DNA of 24,856 nt from Candidatus Kaiserbacteria bacterium RIFCSPHIGHO2_02_FULL_54_11b (GTDB lineage Bacteria; Patescibacteriota; Minisyncoccia; Phycocordibacterales; UBA2100): the NCBI GenBank assembly GCA_001781275.1, contig MFLH01000010.1, forward strand, positions 13,048 through 37,903. The letters run 5' to 3'. Position 1 is the first letter of the stretch, and every line of letters begins with the position of its first letter. A program made the position numbers and the translations under genes. Below are positions 14,178 through 16,216 of the stretch, piece after piece. The notes under the pieces are model-generated. The model saw only the letters and a list, made by a program, of their open reading frames with translations, made no database searches and had not been told where the DNA came from.

Positions 14178-14199
14178 ATCCTGAGCGAAGTCGAAGGAT
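14178..14199. repeat. Palindromic repeat family member A (atpA-atpG gap)
   Basis: Arms atcct 14178-14182 and aggat 14195-14199 flank the core GAGCGAAGTCGA. It lies 2 bases after the TAG of atpA in transcription order. The same core with different but complementary arms occurs at 15783-15803, 16195-16216 and 19303-19323. An imperfect relative core (gagcgaagtga) sits at 14152-14162 in the same gap. Confidence 0.75.
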
Positions 14200-14201
14200 A
14201 G

Positions 14202-15770
14202 CTAATCCGTCGCGAACAACTCTTTGTGCGCAAGTTGGAATTCTTCCATCGCCTTGTTCAGTGCTTTTTTCGTGTCATCCGAGAGTTGGCCCGATTTCTT
14301 TATCTCCGCGAGAGTTTTCGCATGTTGGCCATCGAGGTACTCGGCGAGCTGTGCTTCGACTGCTGTGACCTTATTCACGGCTACGTCTGCAAAGAATTTA
14401 TTCCCCGCTGCGTAGAGTATCGCGACCTGCATCTCCACGGGAATCGGAGCACCGTTCTTCTGCTTCAGCACCTCTACCATGCGCACTCCCGAAGCAATGC
14501 GATCTGCGGTCACTTTGTCGAGGTCTTGCGCGAATTGCATAAAGGCTTCAAGCTCACGGAATTGTGCAAGCTCGAGCTTGAGACCGCCGGCGACCGATTT
14601 CATCGCTTTGGTCTGCGCGCTGGAGCCCACACGCGATACTGAGATACCCACGTCGATGGCGGGGCGCACGCCTTTGTTGAAAAGCTCGGCGATAAGAAAT
14701 ATCTGGCCATCGGTGATGGAGATAACGTTGGTCGGAATGTATGCGGAGACGTCGCCTTCTTGCGTCTCGATGATGGGAAGCGCGGTGATCGAGCCGCCGC
14801 CTTTTTCTTCATTGAGACGACATGCGCGCTCGAGAAGGCGTGAGTGGAGGTAGAAGATGTCTCCCGGATACGCTTCGCGGCCCGGCGGACGGCGCAAGAG
14901 GAGCGAGAGCTCGCGGTACGCGACTGCTTGTTTGGAAAGATCGTCGTAGATGATGAGCACATCGCGGCCGGCCTCCATAAAGTACTCGCCGATCGCAACA
15001 CCCGAAAATGGTGCTAAGAATTGGAGTGCAGCGGGAGCTGATGCAGGCGCATCGACGACTATCGTGTACTCGAGTGCGCGCTCGCGGCGGAGCTGCTCGA
15101 CGATGCGTGCAGTTTTCGATTCTTTCTGACCAATAGCGACGTAAATACAAATCGGGCGCTTTTCTTTCGGCTCATTGCGCTGGTTGATTATCGTGTCTAT
15201 CGCGACGGTCGTCTTGCCGATGGAGCGGTCGCCGATGATAAGCTCGCGCTGACCGCGGCCGATCGGGATCATCGAATCGATCGCTTTGATGCCGGTCTGA
15301 AGAGGCACCGTGACAGATTTACGATCGATAACGCCTGCGGCCTGCCGCTCGACAGGCATCATCGTCGTGTTCTTGAAAGGTCCTTTGCCATCGATAGGCT
15401 CGCCCAAAGCGTTCACCACACGTCCGAGCAATTCTTCGCCGGATGGTACTGAGAGGATTTTTCCTGTCGATTTCACGGTCATTCCTTCGGAGACGCGCGA
15501 GGTGTCACCAAGAATAGTCGCGCGGACGCCGTCTTCTTCGAGGTTTAAGATGAGCCCGTAGAGCTCGCGCTGGGCTCCGAGTGAGTCTGCCAATTTCTTT
15601 CCCTTCCCCTCTTCAAAGATGATGATCTCGCTCATCACGGCCTTCGACAGGCCGTCTATTGCAACGACCCCGTCGCCCACCGCCGTCACGCGCCCTACGT
15701 GCGCGCTCTCATGCGAAGGCGTGAATTTCTCTATCTCTTTTACTATTTTTTGAACTACAGAAGAATCCAT
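14202..15770 (-). CDS. atpA: F1 ATP synthase alpha subunit
   Basis: 522 residues, the non-catalytic nucleotide-binding subunit of F1. The Walker A segment is GDRSIGKTT (180-188); most alphas have GDRQTGKT, so the two central residues differ, while the Lys and Thr that contact phosphate are kept. The arginine finger lies in 'ISVSRVGSSAQ' (R380) and the domain order (beta barrel, nucleotide-binding, C-terminal helices) is complete. The start ATG at 15770 is 29 bases downstream of the atpH stop; that gap holds most of a palindromic repeat. Length is typical. Confidence 0.98.
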   Translation of the reverse strand: MDSSVVQKIVKEIEKFTPSHESAHVGRVTAVGDGVVAIDGLSKAVMSEIIIFEEGKGKKLADSLGAQRELYGLILNLEEDGVRATILGDTSRVSEGMTVKSTGKILSVPSGEELLGRVVNALGEPIDGKGPFKNTTMMPVERQAAGVIDRKSVTVPLQTGIKAIDSMIPIGRGQRELIIGDRSIGKTTVAIDTIINQRNEPKEKRPICIYVAIGQKESKTARIVEQLRRERALEYTIVVDAPASAPAALQFLAPFSGVAIGEYFMEAGRDVLIIYDDLSKQAVAYRELSLLLRRPPGREAYPGDIFYLHSRLLERACRLNEEKGGGSITALPIIETQEGDVSAYIPTNVISITDGQIFLIAELFNKGVRPAIDVGISVSRVGSSAQTKAMKSVAGGLKLELAQFRELEAFMQFAQDLDKVTADRIASGVRMVEVLKQKNGAPIPVEMQVAILYAAGNKFFADVAVNKVTAVEAQLAEYLDGQHAKTLAEIKKSGQLSDDTKKALNKAMEEFQLAHKELFATD

Positions 15771-15782
15771 ATGATTTTATTT

Positions 15783-15803
15783 ATAGTGAGCGTGTCGAAC
15801 TAT
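15783..15803. repeat. Palindromic repeat family member B, covering the atpH stop
   Basis: Arms atagt 15783-15787 and actat 15799-15803 flank the core GAGCGTGTCGA. The TAG stop of atpH (15800-15802) is part of the arm, so the element ends the reading frame. The copy at the end of atpF has the same arms and the same relation to its stop. Confidence 0.8.
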
Positions 15804-16186
15804 GCGATCGAACGATTATATATCGAAAGTAGGTCTTTCTTCCAGCTCGCGTCAACGAGTCGCCCGCGACCTTCCAGTCTCCAGCCGCCGACAAGGCTCT
15901 CGTCGACGTTGAGTGCAACCTCATCTGCCTTGACACTCATCTCTTTGAGAATATCTTTGATTGCCTTGAGTCCAAGCTTCTCATCCTTTTTCTGCGCAAC
16001 GGAAAGCACAATGCCGCTGCGCGCTTGATCTCGTGCGGCAATGCGGGCAAAGGCGCGGGCAATGCGTGGCATGAGGGCGGTGCGTCCGCGGAGCGCGAGC
16101 ACTTCGTGGAGCGCGCTCAGAGCCTTCTTCGGCGCTGTGCCGCTTTGTATCATCTGCCAAAGTGCTTGTGCGTATGCGGTTTCCAT
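15800..16186 (-). CDS. atpH: ATP synthase delta subunit, short form
   Basis: 128 residues against about 175-180 in typical bacteria. Delta links the top of F1 (alpha N-termini) to the b stalk. The N-terminal helical bundle begins METAYAQALWQMIQSG but is abbreviated. The C-terminal part keeps the delta pattern 'VLSVAQKKDEKLGLKAI' and later 'DESLVGGWRLEGRGRLVDAS', matching the conserved 'D-x-x-L-I-G-G-x-x-x-x-x-g-x-x-x-D-x-S'. Assignment is supported by its position between b and alpha. The reduced N-terminal domain may have been shortened in this lineage. It starts 26 bases downstream of the atpF stop. Confidence 0.9.
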   Translation of the reverse strand: METAYAQALWQMIQSGTAPKKALSALHEVLALRGRTALMPRIARAFARIAARDQARSGIVLSVAQKKDEKLGLKAIKDILKEMSVKADEVALNVDESLVGGWRLEGRGRLVDASWKKDLLSIYNRSIA

Positions 16187-16194
16187 AATTATTT

Positions 16195-16216
16195 ATAGTG
16201 AACGTAGTCGAACTAT
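16195..16216. repeat. Palindromic repeat family member C, covering the atpF stop
   Basis: Arms atagt 16195-16199 and actat 16212-16216 flank the core GAACGTAGTCGA. The TAG stop of atpF (16213-16215) lies in the arm. Relative to the stop it is placed exactly like the copy at the end of atpH; both genes end gca TAG ttcga. Confidence 0.8.

Follow-up and report, generated by a model that had tools for sequence, protein, structure and literature searches.

A stretch of 24,856 nucleotides from Candidatus Kaiserbacteria bacterium RIFCSPHIGHO2_02_FULL_54_11b (contig MFLH01000010.1, positions 13,048 to 37,903; the whole stretch is called the window below) contains four small palindromes, three in its atp operon and one inside ahcY, which belong to a widespread family of repeats of about 24 nt found both between genes and in frame within housekeeping genes. 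The copies of this GTCGA-type family are dispersed, share a conserved tip held between arms that vary and remain complementary, and carry on one side a covarying tag; in the window's genus, the sequence beyond the tag also matches the arm. Some copies are in-frame inserts, their sites are filled in some relatives and empty in others, and one site is shared with palindromes that have other tips. The family probably consists of short non-autonomous mobile palindromes, similar in form to repetitive extragenic palindromes (REPs) and in habit to the Rickettsia palindromic elements (RPEs).

Within the window alone, the core with at most one mismatch is not above chance (six found, 3.16 expected, and 10 of 100 shuffles reach six), so the argument that its palindromes are real is built on arm pairing and on the genome-wide count instead. 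In the window's genome (G000; 741,590 bases in 56 contigs, 83% complete), TGAGCNNNGTCGAA has 13 matches against none for the reversed control, an excess over expectation of the kind that the initial annotation had proposed to look for, and the pattern TGANC-N1-6-GTCGAA has 45 against 5, with a loop of 2 or 3 nt in 41 of the 45. TGAGCNNNGTCGAA is present in 36 of 58 genomes of the same taxonomic family, the 58 having 0 to 14 copies each. A sample of the phylum gave matches in 67 of 145 genomes, with 354 copies against 39 for the control, 125 of the 354 coming from four genomes. Furthermore, a stricter pattern returned at least 117 stretches from many phyla (the wide set), and the family is therefore not confined to Patescibacteria. 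Beside the loci returned by search, 80 stretches were taken from the listed matches in the family genomes, copy-rich genomes first. No description of the GTCGA-tip family was seen in the open-licence literature, where string searches are weak because papers seldom print such strings.

Arm pairing was assessed in 118 unique copies with 3-nt loops from the window's own genome and the family genomes, counting Watson-Crick pairs beyond the T-A pair fixed by the pattern and leaving out copies less than 40 nt from the end of a locus and duplicates with identical 40-nt flanks. At least three consecutive arm pairs were found in 76 of these copies, whereas shuffling the right arms gave a mean of 15.4 and a maximum of 26 in 1000 shuffles; arm complementarity thus exceeds chance, the point that the initial annotation had proposed to test. 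The pairs are formed at arm positions 2, 3 and 4 (98, 95 and 97 copies, respectively), while position 5 is paired in 42 copies against 42.0 expected, and positions farther out are likewise at the expected level. Among 34 distinct TGAGC-N2/3-GTCGAA copies in the window's genome, 21 have at least three further consecutive arm pairs and three have two. The initial annotation had named unpaired cores elsewhere in the genome, or a count no higher than expected, as grounds for dropping its reading; genome-wide neither was found, although the remaining ten of the 34 cores have no arm pairing.

Beside the arms, conservation occurs only on the upstream side of the strand that reads GAGC. In 75 copies with full arms, position 5 is A or G in 73, position 6 is T in 62, position 7 is T or C in 64 and position 8 is T or C in 66. 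The outer bases of this tag, positions 8 and 5, covary (T-A in 33 and C-G in 29 of the 75), so that they form a Watson-Crick pair in 62 of 75 copies against 32.4 after shuffling, and in 49 of 58 against 24.9 when orthologous-looking sites are removed. The same tag base combinations are found with several different arms, which argues against a single founder. Removal of orthologous-looking sites reduced the genus set from 117 to 87 copies, one copy beside a run of N being dropped; 58 of the 87 have a YYYR tag (TTTA 27, CTTG 16, CCTG 10, others 5), and all three arm pairs are present in 42 of these 58. In the wide set (copies with CC arms, n = 124), GTCA is the commonest tag, with 29 copies, and CCTG accounts for 14. 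There the outer tag bases pair in 44 of 124 copies against 34.8 after shuffling, which makes the covariation a property of the YYYR class and not of the whole family.

The 42 deduplicated, tagged, full-arm genus copies, in which kinship was controlled solely by removing similar flanks, also revealed a relation between the arm and the sequence outside the tag. A base complementary to that of arm position 4, 3 or 2 stands at flank position 9, 10 or 11, respectively, in 66 of 126 cases against 40.2 expected, a value reached in 0 of 5000 shuffles. The match persists without TAG arms (58/114 against 38.3, 0/5000 shuffles), without TAG and CCC arms (36/57 against 23.3, 0/5000) and at positions 10 and 11 alone without TAG arms (34/76 against 22.0, 1/5000), and it is at the null level in two shifted registers and at the mirror position on the other side. 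The layout is thus X' - YYTR - X - tip - X', with a short direct repeat around tag and arm. This arrangement may mean either that the arms are copied from the flank or that targets are chosen by pairing with the arm.

The gene context was obtained from simple, rough open reading frame (ORF) calls on 92 paired-arm copies, a sample that favours 3-nt loops. Of these copies, 70 lie within an ORF, 13 between ORFs and nine across the end of an ORF; one copy scored as coding (L310) comes after a stop codon on direct reading. The GAGC strand is antisense in 52 of the 70 coding copies and sense in 18, a bias that is partly expected, since one frame of this strand contains TGA, and none of the 18 sense copies is read in that frame. 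Eight of the 12 copies with TAG arms span an ORF end (L012, L027, L051, L284, L285, L320, L326 and L338). Depending on the frame, the copies encode the peptides PSTGSGQ, GSTPLT or PFDSAQGKP. The hosts AhcY and MetRS are backed by database names, and IleRS, ValRS (near its end), IF2, ThrC and a superoxide dismutase (SOD)-like protein were read by eye. The remark of the initial annotation that STGSGQ-type peptides recur proved correct, as the ahcY copy encodes PSTGSGQ and a list of 120 AhcY homologues has PSTxSG in 11, counting the query; six of the AhcY proteins that could not be read at the insert site contain PSTxSG somewhere in their sequence.

The positions of the copies in sister genomes, another comparison that had been proposed, turned out to be filled in some and empty in others. 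At the junction of atpA and atpG, where 30 loci were compared, a paired-arm copy is present in four (the window's own, L083, L088 and L090), a core with decayed arms in L091 and a degenerate copy in L070, and the remaining loci either have hardly any spacer or show palindromes or repeats of other kinds. The site at the end of atpH holds copies with partly mismatched arms in L071 and L088. The MetRS site could be read as DNA in 25 of 30 loci: 17 have no insert, three have the GTCGA-tip family and five have other palindromic inserts, all with CCC/GGG outer arms and a YRAR tag when read by eye. For both MetRS and AhcY, the protein list comprises the 120 top-ranking entries out of 8000 scored, and because the queries themselves carry the insert, the following frequencies do not estimate those of the population. 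Of the 120 MetRS proteins, 119 were readable; 95 lack an insert (91 judged by length alone), 11 have the GTCGA-tip family peptide (query included) and 13 have other insert peptides, whereas of the 70 AhcY proteins readable at the site, 63 have no insert, five are of the PST type (query included) and two have another insert. AhcY DNA was readable in 14 of 30 loci, comprising 12 without insert, the window's own and one with another palindrome (L417). The other palindromic inserts at these two sites (L417 in genome G050; L345, L349, L356, L366 and L369) encode peptides such as SSAKATEGKP and GPASAKGSGGGT.

Written on the gene-sense strand, the layout of a 3-nt-loop copy is X - TTCGACNNNGCTCA - X' - YAAR; X stands for 3 nt, X' for its reverse complement and YAAR for the tag, and the whole has 24 nt, or eight codons. 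This is probably the unit of the element. Genome G226 has a head-to-tail pair of cores at a distance of 24 nt, the spacing expected from an arm of 3, a tip of 14, an arm of 3 and a tag of 4. The MetRS homologue P0146 has eight extra residues within its FDSAQGKP insert, which, at the protein level, would fit a nested 24-nt unit. Tip families other than TTCGACNNNGCTCA exist and include CTCCGCTAAAGCTACG, and the MetRS gene of L356 has a similar element in which a hairpin from another tip family, 26 nt long and 30 nt with its CAAG, is nested in frame; as read, this nested insertion appears to lack a target duplication. The initial annotation had offered a mobile palindrome that copies its flank as one explanation. 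Its mobile half is supported by the filled and empty sites, the nested insertion and the 24-nt tandem, and the one-sided flank match in the genus supports a relation to the flank, which may come from copying or from the choice of targets that pair with the arm.

The four copies of the window, and a palindrome of a different kind, are described in the following table.

Palindromes of the window (positions counted from its first base)
Feature	Position	Strand	Description
Copy 1	14175..14199	+	degenerate tag TACA 14175-14178; arms ATCCT/AGGAT; palindrome 14178-14199; core GAGCGAAGTCGA 14183-14194
Copy 2	15780..15803	+	tag TTTA 15780-15783; arms ATAGT/ACTAT; palindrome 15783-15803; 2-nt loop core GAGCGTGTCGA 15788-15798
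Copy 3	16192..16216	+	tag TTTA 16192-16195; arms ATAGT/ACTAT; palindrome 16195-16216; core GAACGTAGTCGA 16200-16211
Copy 4	19303..19323	+	arms GCCCT/AGGGC; 2-nt loop core GAGCCTGTCGA 19308-19318; irregular tag
Different palindrome	13904..13928	not assigned	ATGTTGGGTTT-CGT-AAACCCAACAT; perfect 11-bp arms; 3-nt loop; within the atpG ORF

The atpF, atpH, atpA and atpG genes are on the minus strand, and their names come from the initial annotation and from reading of the translations. Copy 1 sits between atpA (stop codon 14202-14204) and atpG, whereas the stop codons of atpH (15800-15802) and atpF (16213-16215) fall in the right arms of copies 2 and 3, respectively. These last two copies, which have identical arms, are also alike in their surroundings (TTTATAGTGA), and the same applies to two further copies of the genome, L012 and L013. 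Copy 4 is an in-frame insert of ahcY (ORF 19022-20296, minus strand). The initial annotation had placed three elements with a common core in the atp operon; the positions were right, but the core was drawn too strictly, as only copy 1 fits GAGCGnnGTCGA, while copy 2 is one loop base shorter (GAGCGTGTCGA), copy 3 has GAAC and the ahcY copy reads GAGCCTGTCGA. It was accurate in stating that the arms vary and yet pair, since all four palindromes have 5-bp perfectly complementary arms where it had put them, and in reporting the fourth copy, with its GCCCT/AGGGC arms, in ahcY.

The palindrome within atpG is outside the GTCGA family. Possibly it represents another tip family, inserted in frame, because hairpins of similar build are seen by eye where atpA and atpG meet in some sister genomes. 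Copy 1 is adjoined at 14137-14177 by an imperfect hairpin of greater length (GTTAGATTCTGTTAC ... GAGTTAGAAAATCTTAC); comparable sequence lies beside a copy in L023/L090, and a more diverged form of it in L083, L088 and L091. Elsewhere in the window, Rfam gives a LOOT RNA match (RF03000, 66 bits) at 4271-4385 and a tRNA match (RF00005) at 22281-22352, both on the minus strand.

A mechanism for the spread of such elements can be proposed. An enzyme with strand-transfer activity, provided in trans, would insert the element in the form of a single-stranded hairpin; the tag would be the joining end, and the arm on the tag side would pair with the target and guide the insertion, in the manner of guide-target pairing in IS200/IS605. 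Copies within genes would persist as near-neutral passengers, because 24 is divisible by three and most frames are open, and later template-switch repair may keep their arms complementary. A bolder form of this proposal, which we put forward as speculation and hold to be improbable as a whole, describes a mobile element of minimal size, about 24 nt, with its near arm as a rewritable guide, so that insertion occurs where the target pairs with that arm. Arms, tag and target would co-evolve while the tip names the family, different tips would share one arm-tag grammar and replace each other at the MetRS site, and the moving enzyme would be other than the resident Pfam-type Y1 transposase and would possibly come from outside the cell.

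Several observations weigh against mobility, or against this account of it. The arm-flank match was not found in other phyla: in the wide set, position 9 pairs with arm position 4 in 30 of 124 copies against 30.4 expected, the YYYR-tagged copies of that set (n = 42) give 19 against 15.5, inside the shuffled range (maximum 22), and G, the base expected opposite a CC arm, is found 35 times at position 10 and 34 times at position 11 among the 124. The arm-flank rule is therefore shown solely for the window's genus and close kin. Moreover, 29 of the 87 deduplicated genus cores are without a YYYR tag, and full arms are present in 11 of these 29; copies whose loop has 2 nt, including the one in ahcY, are 23 nt long and do not fit a neat in-frame unit; one copy of the G226 tandem pair has unpaired arms; and the nested insertion of L356 belongs to another tip family and has a 3' flank, AAAG, that does not match its arm. 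We infer the insertion junctions from filled and empty genomes that are not near-identical, and the empty sites may be losses. No mobiliser was found, either. Of 32 genus loci with a Y1 gene (29 from the genus search and three of the window's own genome), just one has a copy (L236), 761 nt from the gene; a gene resembling a REP-associated tyrosine transposase (RAYT) is found in one of 111 copy-bearing loci; six of 14 copy-rich genomes chosen from the phylum sample (G251, G244, G142, G144, G209 and G234) have no match to PF01797 (Y1_Tnp); and one of 19 Y1 loci from the other eight contains a copy.

These last counts bear on the idea that a resident Y1 (RAYT-like) transposase moves the palindromes, which we consider unlikely, although several facts speak for it. 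Y1_Tnp matches occur in 45 of 52 genus genomes, copy and Y1 counts are correlated (rank correlation 0.43, p 0.005, 40 genomes, with no correction for kinship), the six genomes without Y1 have 0-2 copies, and about 10 of 26 readable RAYT-like genus genes have, by eye, flanking hairpins whose inner tips are conserved (AAGGTCCGACCTT, AAGTCTGACTT, GAGGTGTCACCTC and similar ones) and whose outer arms vary. However, the tips of those hairpins are not that of the GAGC/GTCGA copies, to which the genes show no linkage, and the six copy-rich genomes without PF01797 would have to be accounted for. A RAYT linked to the repeat was thus not supported in the genus, copy-bearing, wide-set or copy-rich-genome loci; in the wide set, a RAYT-like ORF occurs in three of 117 loci, at 66, 1485 and 3652 nt. 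The hairpin-flanked RAYT-like genes (L014, L222, L231, L234, L235, L237 and L240-L243) have a layout like that of the GTCGA-tip family. A Y1 type outside PF01797 is present at L111, and a type missed by that profile is therefore possible. A search of 49 genomes, to which 50 of the 117 wide-set loci had led, found genes of the L111 type in 20, with a copy beside the gene in two of 30 loci, one being L111 itself, which had been found via its copy, and with looser, farther matches in a third. Among the gene families shared by wide-set loci, the largest clusters look, by eye, like housekeeping or broad families.

Two further explanations were considered. Template switching during replication (quasipalindrome correction) at old copies could keep the arms complementary with no continuing transposition, and this process is described as homogenising the arms of inverted repeats and as able to maintain hairpins (PMC7202029, PMC8604942, PMC8794818). 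The orthologous site in the SOD-like gene fits it, as the arms differ among five genomes, three being fully paired at positions 2-4 (CAC/GTG, GGG/CCC and TGG/CCA) and two mismatched at position 4. Nevertheless, template switching leaves unexplained the conserved tip in unrelated genes, the empty sites and the MetRS site, where tips differ although the outer arms are the same, and as the whole explanation it appears rather improbable. Selection for a hairpin, the other possibility raised in the initial annotation, gained little from the data. A functional RNA or DNA hairpin, for example at the end of an mRNA or at a regulator site, would suit the eight TAG-arm copies that cross ORF ends, the excess of antisense copies and a promoter-like match that overlaps copy 2 (15798-15771, minus strand; three such matches in the region against 1.1 in shuffles). 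Yet the antisense excess is in part what the TGA of the GAGC strand would produce, copies stand mid-gene in unrelated genes, 70 of 92 paired-arm copies lie within ORFs by the simple calls, and the four copies of the window fold no better than shuffles as DNA or RNA (z -0.97 to +0.73). No terminator-like match falls on the three atp copies (scan of 13900-16500, with the ahcY copy outside it), and no Rfam match at any of the copies. With these results, we regard a selected hairpin as very improbable. An intrinsic terminator, which has a stable GC-rich stem and a T tract, was rejected from the folding and terminator scans, and a known RNA family was rejected because no Rfam match lies at the copies.

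If the family does consist of mobile palindromes, as we think probable, a very small class of gene-decorating palindromes from many phyla would be added to the REPs and RPEs. It would account for the recurrent odd peptides PSTGSGQ, PFDSAQGKP and SSAKATEGKP in metagenome proteins, and arm-flank pairing would provide a testable rule for the choice of sites by tiny palindromes. In the reduced genomes of Patescibacteria, in-frame insertions in essential enzymes can visibly be traced to the palindromes.

Among the known systems, neither the RPEs, nor the CGTC REPs, nor the IS200/IS605 elements fit the GTCGA-tip family in full. The GTAG REPs with their RAYTs (REPINs) are described as hairpins with a tetranucleotide at the foot and with dispersed, non-autonomous copies (PMC6006769), and the GTCGA-tip copies likewise are dispersed, non-autonomous hairpins with a foot tetranucleotide. 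However, no GTAG or GTGG occurs among the 58 genus tags, and no linked RAYT flanked by the GTCGA-tip repeat was found in the Y1 loci of the genus and of the copy-rich genomes. In IS200/IS605, the ends are reported to consist of a hairpin and a short sequence, and a guide tetranucleotide to interact with the target (PMC6006769). The arm-flank match of the genus (66/126 against 40.2), which is not seen in other phyla, recalls this pairing, whereas the GTCGA-tip element has no transposase gene and no pair of left and right ends was seen. The RPEs, in turn, are described as in-frame palindromic repeats in unrelated metabolic genes, with several families and recurrent peptides (PMC10969869, PMC3733652), and the GTCGA-tip copies in frame in MetRS and AhcY, with empty orthologues, resemble them in this respect. 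RPEs are given as about 150 bp long (PMC10969869), although the shorter RPE-4 and RPE-6 are CGTC REPs (PMC3733652); the GTCGA-tip unit of about 24 nt, with its conserved tip, variable arms and YYTR tag, differs from them in a comparison made on their published descriptions.

The CGTC REPs, as described in PMC3733652, include TGTC variants, form head-to-head dimers, have stems of 8-9 bp with loops of 4-5 nt and have no dedicated transposase. The GTCGA-tip family shares with them the short palindrome, the one-sided tag and the lack of a known dedicated transposase, and it is possible, though we doubt it, that it is strictly of the CGTC type, a member of the CGTC/TGTC-tagged superfamily of Di Nocera and colleagues in which TTTA, CTTG and CCTG of the genus would be a lineage variant. 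These three tags make up 53 of the 58 tagged genus copies, and the copies are often intragenic by the simple ORF calls. In addition, the stem has 4-5 bp around a 12-nt core, genus pairing being down to the expected level at position 5, as opposed to the longer stem and short loop reported for CGTC REPs, and the text of PMC3733652 (figures not covered) contains no word beginning GTCGA. In favour of membership, the 29 GTCA tags of the wide set are preceded by T in 21 copies and by C in two, so that TGTC or CGTC stands before A in 23 of the 124. The same feature recurs in genome G251, where five close pairs, chosen for their closeness, stand head to head 37-57 nt apart (L401-L405), with GTGTCA before each core. 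This genome has no PF01797 match, and its pairs are REPIN-like without a Pfam-type RAYT; with their tags and head-to-head arrangement, they appear to be the closest approach of the GTCGA-tip family to the CGTC REPs.

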